NCBI GenBank assembly: GCA_027307065.1
Contig: DAHUXT010000005.1
Location: 1 to 35,626, forward strand
Length of the DNA stretch: 35,626 nucleotides
Direction of reading: 5' to 3'
From: Ktedonobacteria bacterium
GTDB taxonomy: Bacteria > Chloroflexota > Ktedonobacteria > Ktedonobacterales > JADMIN01
Shown here: positions 222 to 24,306 of the stretch, in pieces
Numbering within the stretch: the stretch's first letter is position 1
Layout of the letters: every line of letters begins with the position of its first letter
Program-made: the position numbers and the translations under genes
Notes under the pieces: generated by a model
Told to the model about the DNA's origin: nothing
The model's database searches: none
What the model saw: only the letters and a program-made list of their open reading frames with translations

Positions 222-1427
222 CTATTCCTGGATGACCGCGAAGGGTAGCAGCGTCTTCGCATCGGCAATGACGGCGAGCCGCCGCCCGCTGGAAGGCCTG
301 AGCAGACCGAAGCGCAGCGCGTCGTTTCCAGTGTAGGTCATCTCGATCTCCGGTTCGATCAATATTGTCCCCGACCCCAGCAAAAACGCGCGCACCGCGG
401 CATGCGATCCGGCAAATGAGACGGCCGAGACGAAGATACGCAGGCAGCCGCACGCCGACTGCAGCCACGTTTGCGGAAATGGGTCGTGCTGCCGGGCCAC
501 CATCAGATGGGTCGTGCGTTGGCAGACCCAACAACGGCAGCTGCCGCCCGCCGCCAGCGCCGCCTCGATGTATCGCCCATATTCGCCGATGACCTTCTTG
601 GTGGCGGGGAGGAACGAACGCGCCTGCGAAAGATCGACCAGGCCTGCCGAGCTAATTTCGACACCGCAGCCGTGGCAGCGCAACCGCATGTTGATGCGCC
701 CGTCATACATCGGCTCGAACGCGCCCGACATCCGCTGCTGGCCGCAGAAGATGCAGGCCAACTGTGTCTCGCGCCAACCGGCGGCATCCTCCGGGAGTAT
801 CGCCAGCCCCATCGCCAGCGACTCGCCGCGCAGATCGTGGCTAAGGATATGCAGCAGTTGGCTGCGCGCCCGGTGCAGCCGTGCCTCCAGCGCGCTGAGC
901 GTCAGGCCCATGCGGGCGGCAAGCTCTCGCTGGGGAATCTCCGCGAGATAGTGCTGCTCTACGGCGACGCGACTCTCGCGGGGCAAATGGCCGAGCGCGC
1001 GATCCAACAGCACGAGCATATCGCGGCGCGTCAACTCCTCAGCGGGGTCGAAGGTATCGGGGTCGGCAAGTTGGGCCAGGAGATCGTTTTCGCAGCCCGG
1101 TTGATCGTCACCGCTGTGAATGTTCTGCTCGCGGGCGCGCAAGATGCCCTGTCGCCGATGGTAGAGCAGGCAGACATTGCGGCAGATGCCATCGAGCCAG
1201 GCGGCAAAACGGGATTCGTCGCGCAGGTGGTCCAGCGATTTCCAGGCTTCGATTAGCGTCTCCTGGACGATGTCGTCTACGGCGTCGGGAGCGATTTGCT
1301 GCGATCGTGCCAGCCGCTGCAGCCGTGGCTCGGCGCGGCTGAAGAGATCCTGAATCTGGCCGGCAAGAGGCATTTTGACGCTATTTCCTGGCATCGCCGT
1401 CGTGTGGTGTGGCTGCTCGTCTGTCAC
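222..1427 (-). CDS. ECF-type RNA polymerase sigma factor with cysteine-rich C-terminal extension
   Basis: The protein has 401 residues from a GTG start at 1425-1427, chosen because GGAGG sits 10 nt upstream; ATGs at 1394 and 1373 are alternatives. Sigma-70 region 2 spans about residues 28-95 (DIVQETLIEAW, RFAAWLDGICRNV). Region 4 spans about 140-195 (ALGHLPRESRVAV, then a helix-turn-helix with QRELAARMGLTLSALEARLHRAR). Ordinary ECF factors end near residue 200, but here about 200 more residues follow. They contain CIFCG (Cys225/228) and CHGCG (Cys251/254), a likely zinc-binding pair of knuckles, then CRCWVC near 297-302 and CGC near 326. No anti-sigma gene is adjacent, so the extension may be the regulatory part (inference). 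The downstream partner is an MFS gene. Confidence 0.85.
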   Translation of the reverse strand: MTDEQPHHTTAMPGNSVKMPLAGQIQDLFSRAEPRLQRLARSQQIAPDAVDDIVQETLIEAWKSLDHLRDESRFAAWLDGICRNVCLLYHRRQGILRAREQNIHSGDDQPGCENDLLAQLADPDTFDPAEELTRRDMLVLLDRALGHLPRESRVAVEQHYLAEIPQRELAARMGLTLSALEARLHRARSQLLHILSHDLRGESLAMGLAILPEDAAGWRETQLACIFCGQQRMSGAFEPMYDGRINMRLRCHGCGVEISSAGLVDLSQARSFLPATKKVIGEYGRYIEAALAAGGSCRCWVCQRTTHLMVARQHDPFPQTWLQSACGCLRIFVSAVSFAGSHAAVRAFLLGSGTILIEPEIEMTYTGNDALRFGLLRPSSGRRLAVIADAKTLLPFAVIQE

Positions 1428-1511
1428 GGTATTGTATCCTCCACAGATGCAGTCGCGTGAGCGGGGCATCACCTTGCGCAAAAAATGGAGATGCTTCCGG
1501 ACGGCGGCATC

Positions 1512-1537
1512 AACGATCCGCCCAGGTTTGACGTTCC
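1512..1537 (-). promoter_or_regulatory. Possible ECF-type promoter of the sigma-factor gene
   Basis: On the minus strand GGAAC (1537-1533) is followed after 17 nt by CGTT (1515-1512). This is the classic -35/-10 arrangement recognised by many ECF sigma factors. It would start transcription near 1505, about 78 nt before the GTG, suggesting autoregulation. The motif is short and could be chance. It overlaps the opposite-facing TTGACG promoter. Confidence 0.4.
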
Positions 1538-1557
1538 CGTAGCGAGGCGGCTATACT
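1528..1557 (+). promoter_or_regulatory. Sigma-A-like promoter for the DUF512 operon
   Basis: TTGACG (1528-1533), an 18-nt spacer and TATACT (1552-1557) match the housekeeping consensus. The same spacing and -10 are seen upstream of trpS. Predicted transcript start is near 1564, leaving about 155 nt of leader before the DUF512 ATG. Confidence 0.55.
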
Positions 1558-1718
1558 TCAGGGTTGAGCGCGCTTTTCGGAAGACTGTACCGGCGCGCGT
1601 GGCGAGCGACGACGACGCGATGGCGGCATGCCTGAATCTGCCTGAATTTCTGCGCATGACACGCATGTAACGCTTGAACCAGATAGCATATACAACACAC
1701 ATGGGATAATGAGTCACA

Positions 1719-3140
1719 ATGCCAAAACTCTATGGATGGGTGCGTGAGGTCGTGCCGGAAAGCTCTGCTGATCTCGCGGGCATTCAGCCGGGTGATCTGC
1801 TCAAGACTATCAATGAGAATCCAGTGCGCGACCTGGTGGACTATCAGTTCTATGCCGCCGACGAAGAGTTGCTGCTCGGCATCGAGCGCAATGGGCGCGC
1901 CCGCAGTGTGCTGGTTGCCAAAGCGCCCGACGACGAGATGGGCATCCGCTTCGGCGAGGAGCCAGCGCCGTTCATTCGCATCTGCGCCAACAAATGCGTC
2001 TTCTGCTTCGTCAAGGGATTGCCAGAGCGCCATCAGCCGCAGCGCGGTTTGCCGCTTGGCATGCGCGAGACACTCTACATCAAGGACGACGACTACCGAT
2101 ACAGTTTTCTCTTCGGCAACTTCATCACGCTGACCAATCTGAAAGAGGCTGACTGGCGGCGGCTGGAAGAGCAGCGGCTTAGCCCGCTCTACGTCTCGGT
2201 GCATACCACCAACCCGGAGCTGCGCCGCAAGATGGTCGATGGCCCGCGTTCCGGCGAGATTCTGGAGCAGATTCGGCGGCTAGGCGATCTGGGCATCGGC
2301 TGCCATACGCAATTGGTGCTCTGCCCCGGAATCAACGATGGCGACGAACTGGAGCGCAGCATCGCGGAGCTGGCGGCGTTACGTCCGACCGTCGAGTCGA
2401 TCTCCGCCGTTCCCGTTGGCCTGACCAAATACAACAACATGCTCAAGGTCGAGGGCCTGCCGCCGATGCGCCCCTATCGTGTGGACGAGGCGAACGATGT
2501 GATGGAGCGGGTCGAACGCTGGCAGCGCCAATTCGCCGCCGAACCGGGCGCGCGCGGACTGCCATTCGTGTACCTCTCCGACGAGTGGTACTACGTGACA
2601 AAGCGCCCGTTCCCCCCGGCGCGCCACTATGGCAACTACGCCCAGATCGAGAACGGCGTCGGCATGACCCGCAAGCTGCTGGACGACTGGCGCGCTGCCC
2701 GCAAGACGTTGCCAGCCGCCCTGCCCAAGCCGCGCCGTGTAGGTATCGTCACCAGCATGATGGCGCGGCCAGTGATCGAGCGGATGGCGCGTGACCTGCG
2801 CCGCACCAGCGATATCGAGGTGCGGGTCGTGCCGGTCGAGAATCGTTTCTTCGGACCGGTGGTCACCGTCGCGGGACTGCTCTGCGGTCAGGATGTGGTC
2901 GAGCAGGTGCGCGAGCAATGCTCCGACTTCACCGACAGCGACTTGCTGCTCGTGCCGCGCGTGATGCTCGATAACGCGGGCAAGCGCTTTCTCGACGATA
3001 TGACGGTGGAAGATTTCCGCGCCCAACTGCCCGCGCCCGTCACCTTTGCCCGCGCCGCCGATGAGATCGCCATGGCGATGCGCGTGTTGGCAGGGGAATC
3101 TGCCCCAGCGGCCGCTGTGGTTCCGGCGGGCGTCGAATGA
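1719..3140 (+). CDS. DUF512 family protein (PDZ domain + Fe-S, radical-SAM-like)
   Basis: The protein has 473 residues. The N-terminal ~70 residues form a PDZ-like domain (VVPESSADLAGIQPGDLL). Next comes ICANKCVFCF with Cys89, Cys93 and Cys96 in a CxxxCxxC arrangement, then GMRETLYIKDDDYRYSFLFG and GNFITLTN. These are hallmarks of the DUF512 family, which resembles radical-SAM enzymes and likely binds a 4Fe-4S cluster. Later motifs such as VYLSDEWYYV and HYGNYAQIENGVGM also fit. Compared with Firmicutes members (recalled) there is a small insert between FCF and GMR (residues ~98-113). The biochemical role of the family is not established. The Shine-Dalgarno is weak. The stop overlaps the next gene in ATGATG, so translation is probably coupled. 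Confidence 0.88.
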   Translation: MPKLYGWVREVVPESSADLAGIQPGDLLKTINENPVRDLVDYQFYAADEELLLGIERNGRARSVLVAKAPDDEMGIRFGEEPAPFIRICANKCVFCFVKGLPERHQPQRGLPLGMRETLYIKDDDYRYSFLFGNFITLTNLKEADWRRLEEQRLSPLYVSVHTTNPELRRKMVDGPRSGEILEQIRRLGDLGIGCHTQLVLCPGINDGDELERSIAELAALRPTVESISAVPVGLTKYNNMLKVEGLPPMRPYRVDEANDVMERVERWQRQFAAEPGARGLPFVYLSDEWYYVTKRPFPPARHYGNYAQIENGVGMTRKLLDDWRAARKTLPAALPKPRRVGIVTSMMARPVIERMARDLRRTSDIEVRVVPVENRFFGPVVTVAGLLCGQDVVEQVREQCSDFTDSDLLLVPRVMLDNAGKRFLDDMTVEDFRAQLPAPVTFARAADEIAMAMRVLAGESAPAAAVVPAGVE

Positions 3141-3904
3141 TGTTTCCAAAACGCTTCGTGCCGCTCATGCTGATATTCCTGGTCGCGTTGGTCGCGATGA
3201 CTCTGGCGGGCTGTGGCACGCAAGGAAGGCCGCCCGCGCTGGGCAAGCCGGAGTTGGTCACTCTCCGGGCTGATAATGGTACGGCCTCGCTCGGCCAGGC
3301 GACGCTGACCCCGGCCTACGGTGCGCATGTGGTCGTCTACATGCATGGCAGCCTGCTTCCGTACGACAGCCCGCCGACGCCCGCGCAGATTCGGCAGGGA
3401 GGATGCTATGGCAAGGTCGTTGCGCTAGTGACTGCGAATGCGCCCTCGGGTGGCTCGTCGGCTCTGGTGCAGCCGGACGCCAAGCTTGGCGCTGACGTCG
3501 CGCAGCCAGTAGACGGCAACTGGTACGTCGTCGTGTTGCAATCGCCGGAGAAGATCGCGCCCGTCATCGCTTGTGGACATCCGCTCTCCGATCGGCGTCA
3601 ATACTTCGATCTGTATCCGCCGGATAAGGTGGATCAGAGTGTGGGCCTGGGTATCGCGCTCTTCGAGGGTATCGTTATCACGAAGGTGCATATTGAGCTG
3701 GCGGCACCGACGACGACTCAGGCGGCGCAGTGGAGCATCCACAGCGGCGGATGCCAGGGCAGCACGCTCGCCAGTGGCGCAATTGCGCCGGGCGCAGCGA
3801 CCGCTAGCGGCACGGCATTCGCTCCGGTTGATTTGCAGTCATGGTGGCTTTCGGTCACGCTCGATGGCACGGCTGGTCGGTCTACCTGTGTCAAGGCGGG
3901 ATGA
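3137..3904 (+). CDS. Predicted lipoprotein of unknown function
   Basis: The protein has 255 residues. The start is a basic n-region, a hydrophobic helix (LMLIFLVALVAMTLAGC) and a lipobox LAGC with Cys26, so it should be a membrane-anchored extracytoplasmic lipoprotein. The mature part is Ala/Gly/Thr-rich with four further cysteines (around GGCYGK, IACGHP, GGCQGS and STCVKAG) that could form disulfides. Two halves show vaguely similar beta-rich patterns, but I do not recognise the fold. ATG at 3137 overlaps the DUF512 stop; a second ATG follows immediately at 3140. It probably shares the operon with the DUF512 protein and the ATP-grasp ligase. Confidence 0.8.
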   Translation: MMFPKRFVPLMLIFLVALVAMTLAGCGTQGRPPALGKPELVTLRADNGTASLGQATLTPAYGAHVVVYMHGSLLPYDSPPTPAQIRQGGCYGKVVALVTANAPSGGSSALVQPDAKLGADVAQPVDGNWYVVVLQSPEKIAPVIACGHPLSDRRQYFDLYPPDKVDQSVGLGIALFEGIVITKVHIELAAPTTTQAAQWSIHSGGCQGSTLASGAIAPGAATASGTAFAPVDLQSWWLSVTLDGTAGRSTCVKAG

Positions 3905-7723: not shown

Positions 7724-9187
7724 CTAGAGAATATAGCGGCTCAGGTCCTCGTCTTTGAGCAGTTCGCCCAGGCGCTCATCCACGAAGGCCGCATCCACGG
7801 TGATGGTCTGGCCAGAAAGTGACGGCGCATCGAACGAGACATCCTCCAGCACACGCTCGCTGATGGTATGCAGACGTCGCGCGCCAATATTTTCGATGCG
7901 CTCATTCATGGAATAGGCGCAGCGCGCGATCTCCTCCAGGCCGTCCGGCGTAAACTCCACGTTCACGCCCTCCACACCTAGCAGCGCCGTATACTGGCGC
8001 ACCAGCGAGTTTTCTGGCTGGGTGAGGATGCGCACATAGTCGTCCTGGGTGAGCGCGGCAAGCTCCACACGCAACGGCAGGCGCCCCTGCAGCTCAGGAA
8101 TCAGGTCAGATGGCTTCGAGTTGTGGAATGCGCCCGCTGTAATCCAAAGGACGTGATCCGTCTTGACGGGACCAAAGCGTGTCATGACCGTCGAGCCTTC
8201 GATGATAGGTAGCAAGTCGCGCTGTACGCCTTCGCCCGAGACGTCTGGCCCTGACTCTGACCGCCCTCCGGCGATCTTGTCGATCTCGTCGAGGAAGACC
8301 ACGCCCGATTGCTCGACGCGTTGCGTTCCCTGCTCGATCACCTCATCCAGGTCGATCAGCTTATTGGCTTCCTCCTGTGTCAACAGCCGTCGCGCATCTT
8401 TGACCGACACCTGGCGCGAGCGGCGGCGGCTGCTTGGCATCGCATTGAGCAGCTCCTGGAAGTCGCCGCCAACTTCATCGCCCGCGAACCCAGCCATGAA
8501 CTCGAACACCGACGGGATGGCTTCGTCCGGCTCCAACTCGATCTCGATCATTTGCTCGTCGAGCTCGTTGCGTGCCAGTCGCTCGGCAACGGATTTACGT
8601 GTCGGGCGGCGGCGGCGGGCGGGCGCGGCACTCGGCGATGCGCTGTTGCTGCTTCCGCTACCACTGCCGCTGCCGGAGGAAGCGGGCGCGGTGGTCATGG
8701 TGGCAGCGCCTTTTGCGGCCCCGCGTGAGGAGGCAGACGCTACCGCCACTTCGTCAGTCACGTCGTCCGCTGCCTTGGCCGTCAGAATATCGAGAATGCG
8801 TTTCTCGGCCACTTGGGCGGCACGCTCGCGCACCTGCGAGACCCGCTCCTCATGCACCATGCCGATGGCGGTTTCCATCAGGTCCCGGATAATCGACTCG
8901 ACATCGCGGCCGACGTATCCCACCTGGGTAAACTTCGTCGCCTCCACCTTGATGAAGGGCGCATCGGCCATTTTTGCCAACCGCCGCGCAATCTCCGTCT
9001 TGCCAACGCCAGTCGGCCCAATCATCAATATATTCTTAGGAGTGATTTCTGATTGCAGATCCGCAGGCAACGCGAGTCGGCGATAGCGATTGCGCAGCGC
9101 GATGGCTACCGAACGCTTCGCCGCATTTTGTCCCACTATGTAGCGGTCCAACTCCCGAACGATCTGCTGGGGAGTCAGGTCTTTCAT
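7724..9187 (-). CDS. hslU: ATP-dependent protease ATPase subunit HslU
   Basis: The protein has 487 residues. It is the AAA+ unfoldase that feeds proteins into HslV in the cytosol. Seen: VRELDRYIVGQNAAKRSVAIA at the start, Walker A GPTGVGKT (57-64), the GYVGR pore loop (90-94), Walker B VVFLDEID (296-303), and the C-terminal tail LSRYIL that in this family inserts into HslV. The intermediate (I) domain carries an unusual low-complexity linker at about 160-200 (Ser/Gly repeats, then Pro/Ala and RRRRPTRKS). This makes the protein about 40 residues longer than typical HslU. ATG at 9185-9187 is preceded by AGGAG 7 nt upstream. It follows hslV by 93 nt. Confidence 0.95.
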   Translation of the reverse strand: MKDLTPQQIVRELDRYIVGQNAAKRSVAIALRNRYRRLALPADLQSEITPKNILMIGPTGVGKTEIARRLAKMADAPFIKVEATKFTQVGYVGRDVESIIRDLMETAIGMVHEERVSQVRERAAQVAEKRILDILTAKAADDVTDEVAVASASSRGAAKGAATMTTAPASSGSGSGSGSSNSASPSAAPARRRRPTRKSVAERLARNELDEQMIEIELEPDEAIPSVFEFMAGFAGDEVGGDFQELLNAMPSSRRRSRQVSVKDARRLLTQEEANKLIDLDEVIEQGTQRVEQSGVVFLDEIDKIAGGRSESGPDVSGEGVQRDLLPIIEGSTVMTRFGPVKTDHVLWITAGAFHNSKPSDLIPELQGRLPLRVELAALTQDDYVRILTQPENSLVRQYTALLGVEGVNVEFTPDGLEEIARCAYSMNERIENIGARRLHTISERVLEDVSFDAPSLSGQTITVDAAFVDERLGELLKDEDLSRYIL

Positions 9188-9280
9188 GTCTACTCTCCTG
9201 CCTACGAGTGACCTCACGCGGGCGAGAACGGCGTCCTGTTTGCTGAAGGCACCACCGCCGCGCGAGCAAAATCCCGGTGT

Positions 9281-9910
9281 TTAGACTGCCGGGGCCATCG
9301 CACTCTTCTTTACTTTCTTCGCGCCATTCTCAGCTGTCGCCATTTCCTCCTCATCGAGGGTAAAGAAAAGAATGTGATCATTGGTATAAATACACATTGA
9401 GGCGGCAATCGCCATTGCCGAGCGGGCAATGTCTTCGGCGCTCATCTCGGTGTGCTGGAGCAATGCGCGCGCGGCCGCCTGCGCATAGACGCCGCCGGAA
9501 CCGATCGCCGCGACGCCCTCATCGGGTTCGATCACGTCGCCGTCACCCGTCAATACCAGCAGTTCGTCGCGGCTAGCCACCAGCAGCATTGCCTCCAGCC
9601 GCCGCAGAAACTTGTCTTTGCGCCACTCTTTGGTGAGCTCGACCGCTGCCCGGCGCAGGTTACCCTGATAGCGATCGAGCATCGCCTCGAACTTGTCGAA
9701 GAGGCTGAGCGCATCGGCGGTGGAACCCGCGAATCCCGCCAGCACATGGCCACTGGCCAGTTTGCGGATCTTGCGCGCGGTATGCTTCATCACGACATCG
9801 CCGACCGTGACCTGTCCGTCGCCAGCCATCGCGACATCTGTGCCGCGCCGCACCGCCAGAATAGTGGTGGCGTGCATCTCACCTGTTACGCGCTGTGTCA
9901 TCGTATTCAT
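9281..9910 (-). CDS. hslV: ATP-dependent protease peptidase subunit HslV
   Basis: The protein has 209 residues. It is the threonine peptidase of the HslVU complex. [11 protein letters not shown] places the mature N-terminal catalytic Thr at residue 15, so a 14-residue propeptide should be removed. [31 protein letters not shown] and [19 protein letters not shown] are family motifs. The last ~22 residues (Ala/Lys-rich) extend beyond the usual end. The Shine-Dalgarno is weak; ATG 9901 is an alternative start. The order topA-hslV-hslU resembles the Bacillus topA-(trmFO-xerC)-clpQ-clpY region with the middle genes missing (recalled comparison). Confidence 0.95.
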
Positions 9911-17011: not shown

Positions 17012-19186
17012 ATGCGCGCCGACGCACTGACCAATGCACAGGTCGAAAGCAGTCTGGGAATGAGTGATCTACAGACCCACGACCAGCCCGTAATGGGCGA
17101 ATCGTCGAGTCTGTCTGCTCTGCTTGCCCTCTGCGCACACTACATGAACGACGACGACCTCGCGCTCATTCGCGAGGCGTATGAGGTTGCGTCGGCGGCG
17201 CATGCCGGTGTCAAACGCCGGTCGGGCGAACCCTTCATTGAACATCCCATCGCGGTGGCGGCGATTCTCGCGGAATTGGCGCTCGACGCGCAGGGAATCG
17301 CCGCGGCGCTGCTGCATGACACGGTAGAAGATACCGCCGTCACGCTCGATACGCTACGCGCGCGGTTCGGCCCGACAATTGCCGCAATCGTGGATGGCGT
17401 CACCAAGTTCGACGCGGTTGAAGCGCCTAAGGGCGATGGTGAGATTGCCCCGGTTGAGCAGGCGCCAGACGGCACGATAGACGCTCAGGCGGTGCGCGCC
17501 CGCAAGCTGCGCGAACAGGCCGAGACCGTGCGCAAACTCTTTCTGGCGATGGTCGCCGATCCGCGCATCGTTCTGCTGAAGCTGGCCGATCGGCTGCACA
17601 ATATGCGCACGATGTCGGCGCAGACCCCGGCCAAGCGCGAGCAAAAATCGCGAGAGACGCTCGATTTGTATGCGCCACTGGCGGGGCGCATTGGTGTGCA
17701 TGTCTTTCAGTCTGAGTTGGAAGAGTTGGCGTTTTCGTTTCTGATGCCCGATGAGTATGAAAATACCGTCAAGCGGCTGGCTGCCGAGGCGGCGAAACGC
17801 GCCCGATGGGCCGAGCGTATGCGCGAGCGGATGGCGCATGAACTGCTGGCGAGCGGCATCGCGGCGGCGGTCAACTGGCGGATCAAGCGTCCGTATCGCG
17901 CCTATCTGGAGACCCAGGAAACCGGCATGGATGTGGCGCAGATTCACGATGTGATCGCGTTCCGCATCCTGGTCAGCTCTCAGGAGCAGTGTTACGCGGC
18001 GCTCGGCATTATTCATCGGCTCTGGCACCCCTATCTGGAACGCATTCGCGATTACATTGCTGGCCCCAAGATCAATGGATACCGCTCTCTCCACACTGCC
18101 GTCTTCGCCCTCGATGGCCGCCTCGCCCAGATGCACATCCGTACCCACGCGATGCACATTGCCACGCAGCATGGCATCGCCACCCGCTGGCTGGAGCGCG
18201 CCGAATCTGGCGAGCGCGGGCCGGTCACCTCGGCGCTATGGATGGCGCATCTGCCCGAATGGGTTGGCCAATTGGGACGCTGGCAGGATGAACTGCGGCT
18301 GAGCGCCTCGGAATTCGTGGATGCCCTGCGGGGCGAGGTGTTCGAGGACCAGATCTTCGTCTTTACGCCCAAAGGTGACGTGCGCGAGCTTCCGATGGGG
18401 GCAACCGTGCTCGATCTGGCCTACCAGATTCACAGCGACATCGGCGGCCACGCGACTGGAGCCGTCATCCAGCGCAATGGACCACAGGGCGTCTTGATCT
18501 CGCGTGAGGTCGGGCTTGACTACACCCTGAAGACCGGCGACATCGCCCGCGTGCTGACCAACCTGGATGCCACGCCGCAGCCTTCCTGGCTCACGATCGT
18601 GGGCACCCGTACTGCCCGCGAACGCATCAATCGCTCTCTGCGCAACCAACAGCGCGCCACTAGCGCGACACCACTCGGCGAGCCGACACGCCCATTGCCG
18701 CTCCGGCATCCATCTGGCCGGCTGGCGCAGGTGCAGCTTGCCCGCTGCTGCTTCCCGTGTCCAGGCGATGCGATTCTCGGGGTTGCCGACCGTGGCAGCG
18801 GCATCACCATCCACCGCACCTGCTGTCGCACGCTGCGCATGGCGCTCGATCGCCGGATCGCTCGCGGCGCAGCTCATGCGATCGGAGTGCAGGTGCGCTG
18901 GGAGCAAATCCCGGCGATGCCCTACCGCATGGCATTTGCCATCTACGGCCAGGATCACCAGGGACTGATGCACGAGGTCTCGGCCTGTGTGGCACAATTA
19001 GGGTTAAATGTCTATCGCAGCGTTGCCATTGCCCATCAAGATCGCTATAAGGCGGCAATTCTGCTAACCCTGGATATGCTGCCGATTACCCGTCGCGAGC
19101 AGGTGACACGCCGCCTGCGTTCGGTGCAGGGCGTCACCCAGGTAGAGCGCGACCAGCGTAACGGCTGCGAAAACACCCTGCGCTAG
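17012..19186 (+). CDS. RelA/SpoT homologue 1: intact (p)ppGpp hydrolase, degenerate synthetase
   Basis: The protein has 724 residues from ATG 17012 (GGAGGAA 5 nt upstream). The HD hydrolase domain is complete: His64 (AHAGVKRRSGEP), His102-Asp103 with Glu106-Asp107 (LLHDTVEDT), and LADRLHNMRT near 191-200. The synthetase domain keeps its fold (DVIAFRILV, GPKINGYRSLHT) but departs at key sites. In the segment WRIKRPYRAYLET the ATP-contacting Lys is Glu300; the EIQIRT motif reads QMHIRT, so the catalytic Glu is Gln373; and EYGxAAHW became QHGIATRW. TGS (QIFVFTPKGDVRELP), zinc-finger CCFPCPGD and ACT domains follow, but the helical region between TGS and zinc finger is short. Likely a hydrolase-type RSH regulating (p)ppGpp decay. 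RSH2 follows after 96 nt. Confidence 0.92.
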   Translation: MRADALTNAQVESSLGMSDLQTHDQPVMGESSSLSALLALCAHYMNDDDLALIREAYEVASAAHAGVKRRSGEPFIEHPIAVAAILAELALDAQGIAAALLHDTVEDTAVTLDTLRARFGPTIAAIVDGVTKFDAVEAPKGDGEIAPVEQAPDGTIDAQAVRARKLREQAETVRKLFLAMVADPRIVLLKLADRLHNMRTMSAQTPAKREQKSRETLDLYAPLAGRIGVHVFQSELEELAFSFLMPDEYENTVKRLAAEAAKRARWAERMRERMAHELLASGIAAAVNWRIKRPYRAYLETQETGMDVAQIHDVIAFRILVSSQEQCYAALGIIHRLWHPYLERIRDYIAGPKINGYRSLHTAVFALDGRLAQMHIRTHAMHIATQHGIATRWLERAESGERGPVTSALWMAHLPEWVGQLGRWQDELRLSASEFVDALRGEVFEDQIFVFTPKGDVRELPMGATVLDLAYQIHSDIGGHATGAVIQRNGPQGVLISREVGLDYTLKTGDIARVLTNLDATPQPSWLTIVGTRTARERINRSLRNQQRATSATPLGEPTRPLPLRHPSGRLAQVQLARCCFPCPGDAILGVADRGSGITIHRTCCRTLRMALDRRIARGAAHAIGVQVRWEQIPAMPYRMAFAIYGQDHQGLMHEVSACVAQLGLNVYRSVAIAHQDRYKAAILLTLDMLPITRREQVTRRLRSVQGVTQVERDQRNGCENTLR

Positions 19187-19282
19187 CCCCCGCCGCCGAA
19201 TATCACCGAATGTCAATGAAGTCATTCGAGTCGTCAACGTCCTTGAACTCACGGAAACCCTATACACGTCTGGTGGATGCTT

Positions 19283-21859
19283 ATGGATACCGATGCGCTG
19301 CAATCAGCACAACCCGAACCGCAGATGAACCCGCCGAGCCTCTCGCTCGCTGCCGGGGCGGTGCGTCTGCGTCAGGCGATCGTCGGCTACCTGCCGCCGG
19401 AAGATGTCGCGCACGTTGAGAAGGCCATCGAGTTGGCGCGGCAGGCGCGGGCGGCAGCGACGAGAGTGACCGACGAGCGGGCGACTGGCGTGCTGCGGAG
19501 CGACTTCGACTATGTGCTGGCTGTCGCCCAGACTCTGGCGGAGGCGCTCCATATCGACGCGATTACGCTAGCGGCGGTGCTGCTGGCACAGGTGGTCGAG
19601 GCGCGGCTGACCGATCTGGGCGAGGTGCGCGAGCAACTTTGGGGCGCGTTTGGCGAGCAGGTGACGCAGACCATCGCCAGTCTGGAGCGCTTCGATGCCC
19701 TGCAGCGGCCAGCGGTTGCGCTGCGCCGGAACGCCCAAAGCAATGCCGATCCGGATGACGCCGCTCGCGAACGGCGCCGGGGGCGCGAGCGGCAACGCGC
19801 CCAGGATGCCGACGCGCTGCGCAAGATGTTTGTAGCGATGGCGGAGGACCCGCGAGTCGTCGTCATCAAAATTGCCGACCGGCTGCGGTTGATGCGCGAG
19901 GTGCGAGGTGTCGCCGACGAGTGGCGCGCCCGCGCGGCGAAACAGGTCCACCTCGACAGCGAGGACGGCGAGCCAACAGCGCCTGAACAGGCTGAGACGC
20001 CATCTATGAGCCTGGCTGAGACGCCATCTATGAGCCTGGAGGAATGCCGCCTGATCGCGCAGGAAACGCGCGACATCTTCGCGCCACTCGCTGGCCGGCT
20101 TGGTATGGGGCGTGTCGAGAGCGAGTTAGAAGACCTGGCGTTCGCGGTTCTGGAGCCCGACGAGTACGCCTGGTTGCGCGATGCCGTGGCCGAAGAGGCG
20201 CAGGAACGCAGCAAGTATGTGCGACGTGTTACCCAGATGCTGCGTGAGGAGATGCAGAAAATTGGTATCCCCGCCGAAGTCTCGGGGCGGGTCAAGCAAC
20301 TCTACAGCATCTACAAAAAGGTCCAGCGCACCGGCAGTCATGACCTCTCGACACTCTATGACATTCTGGCATTTCGCATCATCGTTGGCAGCGTCGGCGA
20401 GTGTTACCTGGTGCTGGGCCACGTGCATGAATTGTGGCGGCCAAAAGACGGGCGCATCAAAGACTTCATTGCCAGCCCTAAGCCTAACGGCTATCAGTCG
20501 CTGCATACGACGGTCTTCTGCCTGGATGACCAGCTCGCCGAGATTCAGATTCGTACTCGCGAGATGCACGAGATGGCAGAATATGGCGTGGCGATGCATT
20601 GGTATTATAAGGACGCTGGCGACGATGCCAGGGCGTCGTCTCGTCCGCTGCAATCCTGGGTGCAACAGGTAAAAGACTGGCAGCAGGAGCTGCATTCGCC
20701 CGGCTCAACCGCGACCCAGCGCGCATTGGATGCCGTGAAGGGTGATGTCTTGCGCGAGCAGATCTATGTCTTCACGCCGGCTGGCGACGCGAAAGAGTTG
20801 CCCGCTGGCTCGACCCCGCTCGATTTCGCCTTCCGTGTGCATACCGATCTGGGACTGCATGTCTCCGGGGTGCGCATCACCTCGGATGACGGCAGCGGCC
20901 GGCTGAGCCGAAAGCTGGTGCCGCTGGACTACGTGTTGCGCAATGGCGATGTGATCGAAGTGCTCAAACGCAATGATGCGCACCCAACCCGCGACTGGCT
21001 CAAGATTGTGCGCACAAAGACCGCGCGCGACCGCATCATGCGCTATCTCAAAGACCACGAGCGCGACATCGATTTGCAGATGGGACGTGAGCGGCTGGAT
21101 CGCGAGCTACGGACGCTGGGCCTGCGCAAAGGCTACGACGACCTGACCGAGGATGATCTTGAGTGGTTGGCGGAAGGGTTATCGCTGCCGGATATCGAAT
21201 CCGTGCTGGTGGGGTTGGGCGCCGACAAGTTGCGCATGACGACGGTGTTGGGCAAGCTGCGCGAGCGGCTGAAGCCCCCTGAAGAGGCGAAACCAGACGC
21301 ATTGCCGCAGACGCCGCTGATCCGCGAGCCAGAGATTGGCGTGAGCGTACAGGGCATGAGCGGCATGCTGACACGGCTCGCCACCTGCTGCAGCCCGCTC
21401 CCTGGCGATGATCTCTATGGCTTCGTCACCCGCGGCAAGGGTGTGGTCATTCACCGCGCCGACTGTCCAAATCTGCGGGCGTTGCTGGCGCGCCAGCCCG
21501 AACGTGGCATCACGGTCAGCTGGCCGCGCCTGGATGGCAGCGAGACTTTCCGCGCGCCGATTATCGTGGAGGGCAGCGATCGCACCGGGCTGCTGCGCGA
21601 CGTGACCGGCGTGATCTCCGGTGCGAAGATCAATATGATTCGCGTGGAGGTCGCCACCCGCCACCGGCCTGAGCGCGCGGTCATCAATGCTGTGCTCGAA
21701 ATTCGCCATCCCGACGAACTGGAGTCCATCCTGCGGGAGGTACGCGGCGTGAACGGCGTGCTCTCGGCCGAACGCAAAGAACCATCCGGTGGCAACCAGT
21801 CGGCCGTTGCGGCGAAGGCAGCGAAACCGACAAAAGCTCCCCCCCGTGCTCGCAAGTGA
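19283..21859 (+). CDS. RelA/SpoT homologue 2: intact (p)ppGpp synthetase, dead HD domain
   Basis: The protein has 858 residues from ATG 19283 (GGTGG 6 nt upstream; ATG 19277 also possible). The pseudo-HD domain has lost its metal ligands: the HD pair is Ala102-Gln103 (LLAQVVEAR), the HxxxxRKSGEP segment is unrecognisable, and LADRLHNMRT became IADRLRLMRE. The synthetase site is canonical: GRVKQLYSIYKKV (Arg336, Lys338, Lys346), YDILAFRIIV, RIKD, SPKPNGYQSLHTTV and EIQIRT (Glu420). TGS (QIYVFTPAGDAKELP), a full helical domain, zinc finger (CCSPLPGDD...HRADCPN) and ACT domain complete a long RSH. It presumably makes (p)ppGpp from ATP and GTP/GDP on starved ribosomes. It keeps the RxKD motif of bifunctional Rel rather than the ExDD of proteobacterial RelA. 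Confidence 0.92.
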   Translation: MDTDALQSAQPEPQMNPPSLSLAAGAVRLRQAIVGYLPPEDVAHVEKAIELARQARAAATRVTDERATGVLRSDFDYVLAVAQTLAEALHIDAITLAAVLLAQVVEARLTDLGEVREQLWGAFGEQVTQTIASLERFDALQRPAVALRRNAQSNADPDDAARERRRGRERQRAQDADALRKMFVAMAEDPRVVVIKIADRLRLMREVRGVADEWRARAAKQVHLDSEDGEPTAPEQAETPSMSLAETPSMSLEECRLIAQETRDIFAPLAGRLGMGRVESELEDLAFAVLEPDEYAWLRDAVAEEAQERSKYVRRVTQMLREEMQKIGIPAEVSGRVKQLYSIYKKVQRTGSHDLSTLYDILAFRIIVGSVGECYLVLGHVHELWRPKDGRIKDFIASPKPNGYQSLHTTVFCLDDQLAEIQIRTREMHEMAEYGVAMHWYYKDAGDDARASSRPLQSWVQQVKDWQQELHSPGSTATQRALDAVKGDVLREQIYVFTPAGDAKELPAGSTPLDFAFRVHTDLGLHVSGVRITSDDGSGRLSRKLVPLDYVLRNGDVIEVLKRNDAHPTRDWLKIVRTKTARDRIMRYLKDHERDIDLQMGRERLDRELRTLGLRKGYDDLTEDDLEWLAEGLSLPDIESVLVGLGADKLRMTTVLGKLRERLKPPEEAKPDALPQTPLIREPEIGVSVQGMSGMLTRLATCCSPLPGDDLYGFVTRGKGVVIHRADCPNLRALLARQPERGITVSWPRLDGSETFRAPIIVEGSDRTGLLRDVTGVISGAKINMIRVEVATRHRPERAVINAVLEIRHPDELESILREVRGVNGVLSAERKEPSGGNQSAVAAKAAKPTKAPPRARK
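19991..20038 (+). repeat. Perfect 24-bp tandem duplication inside RSH2
   Basis: Two identical 24-bp units (19991-20014 and 20015-20038) encode AETPSMSL twice, in the linker between the pseudo-HD and the synthetase domain. Because the copies are identical at DNA level, the duplication must be recent or variable. Confidence 0.9.
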
Positions 21860-21997: not shown

Positions 21998-23107
21998 TCA
22001 CCGTCCTTTATGCTCCCAGGCGGGGCCTTCGTCGTCGCGAGCCTCATCCAATAGCCGCTGAAAACTGGCATAGCGTTCCGGCGTGATACGTCCCTCGATC
22101 AGCACTGCCCGTAGCGCGCACCCGTCTTCGTCCAGCCCGTGCGTACAGTCTTCGTACTCACAGTTGCCAGCGGCGTCTCGCAGTTCGACGAAGCAGCGGG
22201 GGAGTTCCTCTGACGGAACTTTCCATAGCGACAACTCGCGAATCCCCGCGGAGTCCGCCAGCCAGCCGCCCTCTGGCAGTGGCAGCAGCCGCACGCCAGT
22301 CGTGGTATGGCGCCCTTTGCCTGTCGCGGTGCTAATCTCTCCGGTGCGTTGGCGCGCATCGGAGATGATCGTGTTCATGAGCGACGATTTGCCAACGCCC
22401 GATGGACCTGTCAGCAGCGAGATGCGCCCGGCGAGATGTTGGCGCAGCGCGTCCAGTCCATCGCCAGTGGTCGCGCTGGTCCGCAATACCTCATACCCAA
22501 GCGCGCAGTAGATGCGTTCTGCCGCGACAACCTCATCTGGCTCGCCGAGATCATCCTTGTTCAGGCAGATGATCGCTGGCACATGCGCATGTTCGCACAG
22601 AGCGAGATAGCGGTCGAGCAGACCGAAGTGCGGCGCTGGCTCTCGCATGGCAAACACGAGCACCGCTTGATCGGGATTCGCCAGCAATACCTGCTCAGTG
22701 CCCACTTCAGGGCGAGCGCGGGCCAGCACTCTGTGGCGCGGCACGAGGTCTTCGATCACGCCTTCACCGTTGCCGAGCGGCGTGAAATGGACCCGGTCGC
22801 CGGGAGCGACGCGCGTGGGCGCCTCGGCTGGCGCATCGGGCGCGTCATCCACTGGCTGCTGTCGGAGCACGGCTTGCTGGGGAGACGACGATGCCTGGCG
22901 GCGTGAGGACGGCACAGGTGGCCGCATGGGCCGTTGTTTTCGTAGTCGCCCCCGCAGTGTGCAGAGCCACGATGTGCCATCGGCAGCGACCACCTCGAAG
23001 AGTCCAGGCGCGAGCGCAACGACAAGCCCTTCCTGCTGAGATGACGATTGGCCGCTCTCCGGCTGTGGGGGGGTGGCGGCGTGCTCAGGAAGGGAATCGT
23101 TGACCAT
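21998..23107 (-). CDS. rsgA: Ribosome small-subunit-dependent GTPase A
   Basis: The protein has 369 residues. It is a circularly permuted GTPase that acts in late 30S maturation. The G motifs are in permuted order: G4 NKDD (183-186), then G1 GPSGVGKSS (234-242), a switch region with GKGRHTTT, and G3 DSAG (285-288; usually DTPG). The C-terminal zinc site is Cys316, Cys321, His323 and Cys330 (CEYEDCTHGLDEDGC). The N-terminal OB domain carries a Pro/Gln/Ala-rich insert at about 60-98. ATG at 23105-23107 has AGGAG 5 nt upstream. It converges with RSH2 and diverges from the Ppx/GppA gene. RsgA is a (p)ppGpp-binding GTPase in Firmicutes (established), which fits the neighbourhood. Confidence 0.95.
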   Translation of the reverse strand: MVNDSLPEHAATPPQPESGQSSSQQEGLVVALAPGLFEVVAADGTSWLCTLRGRLRKQRPMRPPVPSSRRQASSSPQQAVLRQQPVDDAPDAPAEAPTRVAPGDRVHFTPLGNGEGVIEDLVPRHRVLARARPEVGTEQVLLANPDQAVLVFAMREPAPHFGLLDRYLALCEHAHVPAIICLNKDDLGEPDEVVAAERIYCALGYEVLRTSATTGDGLDALRQHLAGRISLLTGPSGVGKSSLMNTIISDARQRTGEISTATGKGRHTTTGVRLLPLPEGGWLADSAGIRELSLWKVPSEELPRCFVELRDAAGNCEYEDCTHGLDEDGCALRAVLIEGRITPERYASFQRLLDEARDDEGPAWEHKGR

Positions 23108-23196
23108 GCATGCTCCTGTGTCGAATATCGGTCACTGCTGGGCAGCGTATCCCGCGTGGATGGGCCGCGTCAAGGCGAAACACGCAGCATTGCTCC

Positions 23197-23205
23197 TGTT
23201 ATAGT
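23197..23205 (+). promoter_or_regulatory. Extended -10 promoter of the Ppx/GppA gene
   Basis: TGTTATAGT is an extended -10 (TGnTATAGT) in the rsgA/ppx divergent region. No convincing -35 is present. The transcript would begin near 23212, about 75 nt before the GTG start. Confidence 0.4.
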
Positions 23206-23286
23206 ATCGAGCGGGAGATTGTTCGGTGGAACAAGTTGTGCGCCACATCTGTTTGGGGTCGTCCCGCTGATCGGAAGGAGATTAAG

Positions 23287-24306
23287 GTGGCTGAGAATAT
23301 TCCCTTTGCCGCGGTGGACGTCGGCAGCAATACCATTCACCTGGTGGTTGCGCGCCCGACTGATGATGGCCGCGATCTCGTCACCCTGGCCGACGAACTC
23401 GATATGACACGGCTCGGCGCGGACGTGAGCGCGACCGGCTCGATTAGCGCTGAACGCGCGGCGCGGGCAATCAGCGTCTTGCGGGCGCAAGCGGCGCGGG
23501 CGCGGGCGATTGGAGCACCGGACTTGCTGGCCGTCGCCACCGAGGGCGTGCGTGCAGCCGCCAATGCCGGCGAGTTTCTGGCGCGGGTGCGCGAAGAGAC
23601 GGGTATCAGCCTGCAGGTCGTCACCGGCGATCAGGAGGCCGCGCTGACCTATTGGGGCGCGACCAGTGGCCTGCCCGCAACCGGCGAACGTCGCGCGGTG
23701 CTCGATCTCGGCGGCGGCAGCATGGAGGTCGTCATCGGCGAGGGCTCGCGCATCCACTGGCGCGCATCGCTGCCACTTGGATCCGGCGCGATGCATGACC
23801 GCTACGCGCCATCCGACCCGCCCAAGAGCGCCGAACTGGACAGGGTGCGCGAGGAGACCTCGACACAGCTTGCGAAACTCGGCGTGCCGCTGCCCGTCAC
23901 CCAGGTGATCGCCTGCGGCGGAACAGCCACGACACTCGCTGCGCTGGCATCGCGGGCGCTAAATATCCCGGAGCCGGAGGATTTGGCTGCTGGCGAGGAG
24001 TCGCCACCACACGACGCCGATGGTATGCGCCTGGGGCTGCTCTCGCGCGATCATCTAGAGGCGCTTACTGCATTGTTGAGCGCAACATCTGCCGCCGAGT
24101 TGACCCAGCGGTTCGGCATTGCGGAGGCGCGTGCCCGGTTGCTCGGCGCGGGCGAGGCAGTGCTGCGCGCGGCGGTGGAGCACCTCGGCGCCGATGCCCT
24201 CGCGATCAGCAGGCGCGGCATCCGCGAGGGGGCGATTCTGGCGCGTCTGCACGCGGGCGACGGCTGGCTCGATGCCGCCACTCGTGGCGCCGGGTGGAAC
24301 CAATAA
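23287..24306 (+). CDS. Ppx/GppA family phosphatase
   Basis: The protein has 339 residues from a GTG at 23287-23289, chosen because AAGGAG lies 6 nt upstream. It belongs to the sugar-kinase/actin-like fold: phosphate-1 loop AAVDVGSNTIHLVV (8-21), ATEGVRAAAN, GDQEAALTYWG with the catalytic-type Glu, phosphate-2 loop LDLGGGSMEVVI (139-150), and CGGTATTLAAL followed by SRRGIREGAIL. Members hydrolyse inorganic polyphosphate or convert pppGpp to ppGpp; sequence alone does not decide which. It has only the two-lobed core and lacks the C-terminal HD-like domain of long GppA/Ppx proteins. The nearby RSH genes favour a role in alarmone balance (inference). Confidence 0.9.
   Translation: MAENIPFAAVDVGSNTIHLVVARPTDDGRDLVTLADELDMTRLGADVSATGSISAERAARAISVLRAQAARARAIGAPDLLAVATEGVRAAANAGEFLARVREETGISLQVVTGDQEAALTYWGATSGLPATGERRAVLDLGGGSMEVVIGEGSRIHWRASLPLGSGAMHDRYAPSDPPKSAELDRVREETSTQLAKLGVPLPVTQVIACGGTATTLAALASRALNIPEPEDLAAGEESPPHDADGMRLGLLSRDHLEALTALLSATSAAELTQRFGIAEARARLLGAGEAVLRAAVEHLGADALAISRRGIREGAILARLHAGDGWLDAATRGAGWNQ

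Follow-up and report, generated by a model that had tools for sequence, protein, structure and literature searches.

A tandem pair of long RSH genes in the Ktedonobacterales with reciprocal loss of hydrolase and synthetase residues

Introduction

Bifunctional Rel enzymes both make and degrade the starvation signal (p)ppGpp, and the Ktedonobacterales, whose RSH genes are considered here, are soil bacteria. A division of the two activities between long RSH paralogues has been described in the Moraxellaceae, in which the SpoT of A. baumannii is reported to be a hydrolase only, with a pseudo-SYNTH domain, and RelA a synthetase only, with a pseudo-HD domain (PMC9974481, PMC3153485). In the literature searched, we found no complete reciprocal RSH split besides this one. 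A partial separation is known from the Rel/RshB pair of P. gingivalis, one copy of which lacks key hydrolase residues while the other is bifunctional (PMC6994654).

The Ktedonobacterales locus described below resembles Moraxellaceae SpoT[Hs]/RelA[hS] in the reciprocal loss between two long RSH paralogues, but its duplication is independent according to AU tests and its genes are adjacent in one locus. Its downstream copy is like the RelA[hS] of beta- and gammaproteobacteria in having lost the hydrolase site while retaining the ribosome-binding domains; the pair is nonetheless unrelated by descent to RelA/SpoT, and its downstream protein carries RxKD where RelA carries ExDD. Bacteroidetes Rel/RshB likewise stem from an independent Rel duplication outside the proteobacteria and represent the first half of the process, but no loss of synthesis is reported for the bifunctional copy (PMC6994654), and the locus numbers of the P. 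gingivalis genes (PGN_0465, PGN_1757) lie far apart. The closest relatives, within the same family, are the Rel proteins of other Chloroflexota and the single Rel of a fourth Ktedonobacterales family (f4, genome G013), the latter encoded at the same locus; unlike the pair, these combine two intact active sites in a single polypeptide. No report of the Ktedonobacterales pair was found in titles and abstracts, where the matches to Ktedonobacter with ppGpp were soil-ecology studies.

Results

Two long RSH genes in one locus

The window, that is, the whole stretch of 35,626 nucleotides analyzed, encodes two long RSH proteins, P0001 and P0002:

17012..19186, + strand: upstream long RSH P0001, 724 aa (ORF, Pfam, residue table)
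19277..21859, + strand: downstream long RSH P0002, 860 aa (ORF, Pfam)

The genes are arranged head to tail with a gap of 90 bp, and because of this distance their co-transcription is only assumed. Both proteins match the Pfam profiles HD_4, RelA_SpoT, TGS and ACT_4, the long-RSH architecture, and both hold the CC...H...C residues of the zinc finger in the alignment. By Pfam and residues, P0001 consists of HD_4, a degenerate RelA_SpoT domain, TGS, a zinc finger (CC) and ACT, in that order, and P0002 of a degenerate HD domain, a canonical synthetase, TGS, AH/RIS, a zinc finger and ACT. An Rfam scan of the window gave no match, a promoter and terminator scan between the two genes found none, with regional counts near chance, and a search of a plasmid collection returned relatives below 60% identity and none at or above it. 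Elsewhere in the window (7724-9910, - strand), a proteasome-family subunit gene adjoins a ClpX/HslU-like AAA_2 gene; these genes are probably HslVU.

Active-site residues of the two proteins

Residues were compared in an alignment containing E. coli SpoT and RelA, a Listeria Rel, 26 Chloroflexota Rels and relatives. The regions concerned are:

17177..17698, + strand: intact HD_4 hydrolase domain of P0001 (PF13328 match, residue columns)
17879..18190, + strand: pseudo-synthetase region of P0001 (PF04607 match, residues, model, dN/dS)
19448..19945, + strand: pseudo-hydrolase domain of P0002 (PF13328 score, residues)
20285..20617, + strand: canonical synthetase domain of P0002 (PF04607 136.1 bits, residues)

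An earlier note, made from the DNA letters, had described these genes as tandem RSH paralogues with reciprocal site loss; the open reading frames lie where it placed them, and the pattern recurs in nine upstream and nine downstream sequences of family f1. Every catalytic hydrolase residue tested is present in P0001, namely R69, F75, H78, H102-D103, E106-D107, K190, D193-R194 and H196-N197. Retention of H102-D103 and E106-D107 had been recognized in the note; the metal histidine, which it had put at His64, is His78 of the FIEHP motif, His64 being invariant in alignment A1 and aligning elsewhere. The HD_4 profile (PF13328) matches P0001 with an E value of 2e-46 and 161 bits, compared with 66 bits for P0002.

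In the synthetase region of P0001, the usual Lys, Glu and Gln, found at these positions in all 26 other Chloroflexota Rels, are replaced by E300, Q373 and H375, and RxKD has become RIRD. Glu300 and Gln373 are thus as first reported, the exchange of the catalytic Gln for His375 is an addition, and Asp313, a Mg ligand, is kept, as are Arg290, Lys292, Arg318, Lys353 and Tyr357, the last at the stacking position. The RelA_SpoT profile (PF04607) scores about 85.6-89.8 bits, and in the structure model the predicted G-loop (343-356) has a pLDDT below 50 over a large part. P0001 is accordingly annotated as a predicted (p)ppGpp hydrolase with a pseudo-synthetase (‘Hs’). An intact hydrolase site joined to lost synthetase residues, as in the SpoT[Hs] type, occurs in 9/9 f1 upstream proteins.

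The downstream protein presents the converse picture. Tyr79, Ala104, Gln105, Ala109 and Leu205 of P0002 take the place of H48, H72, D73, D77 and N143 of E. coli SpoT; three of the four expected metal ligands are thereby gone (Y79, A104, Q105). The loss of ligands claimed earlier holds for these three, but Asp201 (E. coli SpoT D139) and Glu108 (E76) remain. Ala-Gln does replace His-Asp, as first noted, at residues 104-105 counted from the ATG at 19277 and at 102-103 only when counting starts at the third codon, 19283. Because the number varies with the start codon chosen, the ‘same residue numbers’ put forward as support for tandem duplication are void as evidence; that evidence consists of aligned columns, tree and synteny.

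The synthetase site of P0002 is canonical (R338, K348, D362, RxKD at 393-396, Y406, E422, Q424), with a RelA_SpoT E value of 2.5e-38 beside a degraded HD_4 match, and P0002 is a predicted (p)ppGpp synthetase (‘hS’). Its motif reads RIKD, and the ExDD of the RelA[hS] type is absent. The motif had been taken as a sign of an origin independent of RelA; it is present but not diagnostic, since 18 of the 26 Chloroflexota Rels in the sample (L006, L010 and L120 among them) have D at the K position, in the form ExDD, QxDD or AxDD, despite intact hydrolase and synthetase residues. RxKD versus ExDD therefore does not divide bifunctional from synthetase-only proteins in the Chloroflexota.

Loss of the helical domain from the upstream protein

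A further difference, overlooked in the earlier note, is the loss from P0001 of the AH/HEL domain between TGS and the zinc finger:

18587..18751, + strand: shortened TGS-to-zinc-finger stretch of P0001 (52 residues, no PF19296 match, model)
21002..21286, + strand: helical (AH/HEL) domain of P0002 (PF19296 match 576-670, model)

The stretch measures 52 residues in P0001 versus 129 in P0002, and the PF19296 (AH/RIS) profile matches P0002 alone of the pair. In the structure models, a single helix (533-551) and a linker occupy this place in P0001, and four helices (581-665) form the AH/HEL region of P0002. In a comparison of folds with the compact (SpoT) and the extended (RelA) state, the full-length models (pTM ~0.6 each) both matched 5iqr (RelA) best, with 7qpr (SpoT) second and third, at a global rmsd of at least 20 Å throughout.

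The usual AH/HEL domain is absent from the upstream proteins of families f1 and f3 and present in the downstream ones. The span is 52-91 residues in f1 upstream copies and 42-46 in those of f3. It reaches 146 in f4, and values of approximately 125-140 are found in other Chloroflexota, in downstream copies and in the upstream copies of f2. The helical domain thus disappeared in the f1/f3 line, as synthesis is predicted to have done. Some SpoT proteins lack the helical and CC domains, a rare loss (Atkinson et al., PMC3153485), so this absence is compatible with membership of the long RSHs. In A. baumannii SpoT, removal of HEL, zinc finger and RRM together impairs function in vivo (PMC9974481).

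A published model links hydrolase specialization to a reduced length of the alpha6-alpha7 loop and of the Core (PMC9974481). By alignment lengths, no such shortening is seen in the f1 upstream proteins: the loop and Core measure 36 and 57 residues in P0001 against 38 and 56 in P0002, and the f1 medians are 39 and 57 upstream against 38 and 56 downstream. A. baumannii SpoT, for which shorter linkers are reported, keeps HEL (PMC9974481), in contrast to the f1/f3 hydrolase copy, which lacks HEL and has unshortened linkers.

Distribution in the Ktedonobacterales and the Chloroflexota

Searches with PF04607 covered 47 members of the class and a selection of 151 genomes from across the phylum. The majority of Chloroflexota yielded a single match. 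A close RSH pair, 2-3 kb apart and in the same order, is found in Ktedonobacterales families f1, f2 and f3; the one genome of f4, G013, encodes a single Rel protein in which neither site is damaged.

All residues of the hydrolase set are present in 30/30 upstream copies. Their synthetase residues differ by family. All nine f1 copies have E or D, Q and H in place of K246, E319 and Q321, and in the four f3 copies K246 and E319 are both replaced. In f2 it is mainly R236 that is altered (W in 15, S in 2), together with nearby changes; K246 is kept in 16/17, and E319 and Q321 in all. By an offset taken from D272/D259, R236 would occupy the position of R249 in T. thermophilus Rel, named as nucleotide-coordinating (PMC9974481). 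As most synthetase residues are kept, the f2 upstream protein may still be bifunctional. The hydrolase/synthetase split proposed in the earlier note thus fits the residues of f1 and f3 but is not uniform across the families. In 31/31 downstream copies the HD metal ligands are lost, with family-specific replacements, and the synthetase set is kept, as in the RelA[hS] type. The f2 pair, [hS] with probably [HS], resembles the common beta- and gammaproteobacterial RelA/SpoT state.

Each f1 genome, including the single-contig G005, has only two PF04607 proteins, those of the pair. No clear additional HD_4 protein was found in f1 genomes, one weak fragment in G002 resembling the upstream copy. The assemblies from f1 and f3 are mostly in many pieces; it is chiefly G005 (estimated 91% complete) that supports the absence of further RSHs.

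In some large f2 genomes there is a third RSH at another locus, either of upstream type with altered synthetase residues or of a short downstream type without the C-terminal domains:

L081:3108-5255 (G042), - strand: third RSH
L083:3161-5098 (G045), - strand: third RSH
L078:3267-5000 (G036), - strand: third RSH

Ktedonobacteraceae-like f2 genomes also encode proteins of 1041-1165 aa that join an RSH-like part to a STAND-like ATPase_2/AAA domain:

L072:12176-15298, - strand: RSH-STAND fusion
L074:2823-6218, - strand: RSH-STAND fusion
L072:4206-7700, + strand: RSH-STAND fusion

They contain HD_4, RelA_SpoT and TGS, some with ACT, and one has only TGS, a weak RelA_SpoT match and ACT; hydrolase residues are partly kept and synthetase residues partly lost. 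The ATPase part weakly matches a PADLOC candidate defence family. Similarly weak PF04607 matches occur in long frames of G015, G022, G030, G035 and G037, and a literature search pairing RSH with STAND returned no paper combining both terms.

Phylogeny and synteny

In a tree of 57 RSH sequences, all Ktedonobacterales RSHs form a single clade (100/100), within which the downstream copies are monophyletic (100/99) and the f1 and f3 upstream copies form a clade (100/100). The Ktedonobacterales sequences group together also in HD-only and SYNTH+TGS trees (SH-aLRT 94 and 99). AU tests reject a grouping of downstream copies with RelA (p 3.7e-67) and of upstream copies with SpoT (p 5.1e-8). The data fit a single upstream clade, and an f4 Rel either inside or outside the duplication (AU p 0.34-0.47). 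The independence from proteobacterial RelA/SpoT that the earlier note had thought probable is supported; in the tree with Chloroflexota homologues that it set as a check, there is no grouping with proteobacterial RelA or SpoT.

The gene order in f4 is tgt, a treble-clef (zinc-finger) protein, rel and rsgA (reverse); tgt and the zinc-finger gene also flank f2 pairs, and rsgA also flanks f1 pairs. The single Rel of f4 occupies exactly the position of the pair between common flanking genes, which fits duplication in situ. The genes following the pair in the window are:

21998..23107, - strand: rsgA GTPase gene (Pfam RsgA_GTPase; synteny, adjoins the single Rel of f4)
23110..24306, + strand: Ppx/GppA-family phosphatase gene (Pfam Ppx-GppA E 2.3e-47; synteny)

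A Ppx/GppA gene and rsgA directly follow the RSH pair in G006 too. It is possible that the phosphatase converts pppGpp to ppGpp, and that the RSH pair, Ppx/GppA and rsgA form a cluster of alarmone-related genes.

Gene arrangement and selection

Gene order is conserved in nearly all sampled pairs. In 3/8 f1 pairs (G003, G005, G006) the two genes overlap by 4 bases, which suggests coupled translation; the remaining pairs have larger overlaps or gaps of tens to hundreds of bases. In the divergent f1 genome G002 (58% complete), the upstream-type gene seemingly runs divergently from the downstream-type gene:

L055 (G002:C270) 156-398, - strand: upstream-type gene, cut by the contig end
L055 (G002:C270) 638-3259, + strand: downstream-type gene

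By a simple counting method applied to one species pair of the window's genus, to which G001 also belongs, overall dN/dS is 0.13 and 0.15 for the two genes, indicating purifying selection. The dead domains differ, the pseudo-SYNTH being tightly constrained (0.08) and the pseudo-HD more loosely (0.23). Being under purifying selection, they probably serve as scaffolds or regulators. Between f1 and f2, dead domains diverge more than live ones: identity is 42% for SYNTH and 52% for HD in upstream copies, and 69% for SYNTH and 31% for HD in downstream copies.

Discussion

We consider it highly probable that a Rel gene was duplicated in place, after which the downstream copy specialized in synthesis and, in f1 and f3, the upstream copy in hydrolysis, the catalytic roles being predicted from residues. 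Tree and synteny indicate that an ancestral bifunctional Rel of the Ktedonobacterales gave rise to a tandem pair where it stood. The downstream copy would have lost its hydrolase site no later than about the time at which f1, f2 and f3 diverged; as it keeps the synthetase together with TGS, AH/RIS, zinc finger and ACT, it is expected to act as a ribosome-activated (p)ppGpp synthetase. On the way to f1 and f3, the upstream copy would later have lost both its synthetase site and its helical domain, and with its whole hydrolase site kept it is expected to be a (p)ppGpp hydrolase that probably does not depend on the ribosome. Since searches of the f1 genomes with these Pfam families found no RSH besides the pair, one protein probably carries out synthesis and the other breakdown. 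With the genes in one direction and close together or overlapping, the ratio of the two proteins would be fixed.

A different reading, which we regard as unlikely, is that the degenerate domains have taken on a new role, for example with another nucleotide substrate or ligand, or that the proteins form a hetero-complex in which the dead domain of one controls the live domain of its partner. The low dN/dS of the dead domains, the conserved gene order and the overlaps all fit this, but low dN/dS is predicted just as well by a scaffold role within the molecule, which has been put forward for RelA and for the SpoT of A. baumannii (PMC9974481), and the seemingly divergent genes of G002 speak against it. 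We give similarly little weight to the idea of a split alarmone enzyme, in which the two proteins would be expressed together at a constant ratio and bind each other, and the dead domains, acting across partners, would make synthesis and breakdown mutually exclusive; if true, this would amount to the cis switch of bifunctional Rel operating in trans.

It is quite improbable that the f1 upstream copy is still bifunctional in the manner of E. coli SpoT, a strong hydrolase and weak synthetase. The six synthetase residues that P0001 retains (Arg290, Lys292, Asp313, Arg318, Lys353 and Tyr357) favor such an activity, and for f2, with K246, E319 and Q321 kept, the bifunctional reading is quite possible. 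In f1, however, three positions invariant in other Chloroflexota Rels are replaced together, the predicted G-loop of P0001 is poorly ordered, and the equivalent Gln, named as catalytic in Rel, has been lost from the SpoT of A. baumannii, which has hydrolase activity only (PMC9974481).

That the pair came by transfer from proteobacteria, whose RelA and SpoT divide the labor in the same way (PMC3153485), is scarcely credible: both AU tests, the single Ktedonobacterales clade and the synteny with the single f4 Rel refute it under the sampling and model used. An artefact of low assembly quality, with frameshifts or decay in the genes, can be dismissed with similar assurance, for although the window comes from a fragmented assembly (558 contigs, 85% complete), the reciprocal pattern is replicated in open frames of nine f1 sequences per gene, including the single-contig chromosome of G005, with dN/dS well below 1, and is thus neither assembly error nor chance.

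Preferring in-place duplication followed by specialization, we find that the pair seems, on its residues, to be an independent repeat of the proteobacterial RelA/SpoT split, one copy seemingly only breaking the alarmone and the other only making it. It would work like Moraxellaceae SpoT/RelA without being orthologous to them. The adjacent or overlapping genes offer a way to balance synthesis against hydrolysis after the split, one that RelA/SpoT lack. The linker shortening of the published model (PMC9974481) is absent here, and the helical domain is lost instead. The living intermediates can be ordered, from f4 with both sites, through f2 with a hydrolase-defective downstream copy and a nearly intact upstream one, to the full reciprocal loss in f1 and f3, and thus make it possible to test which structural changes accompany specialization.
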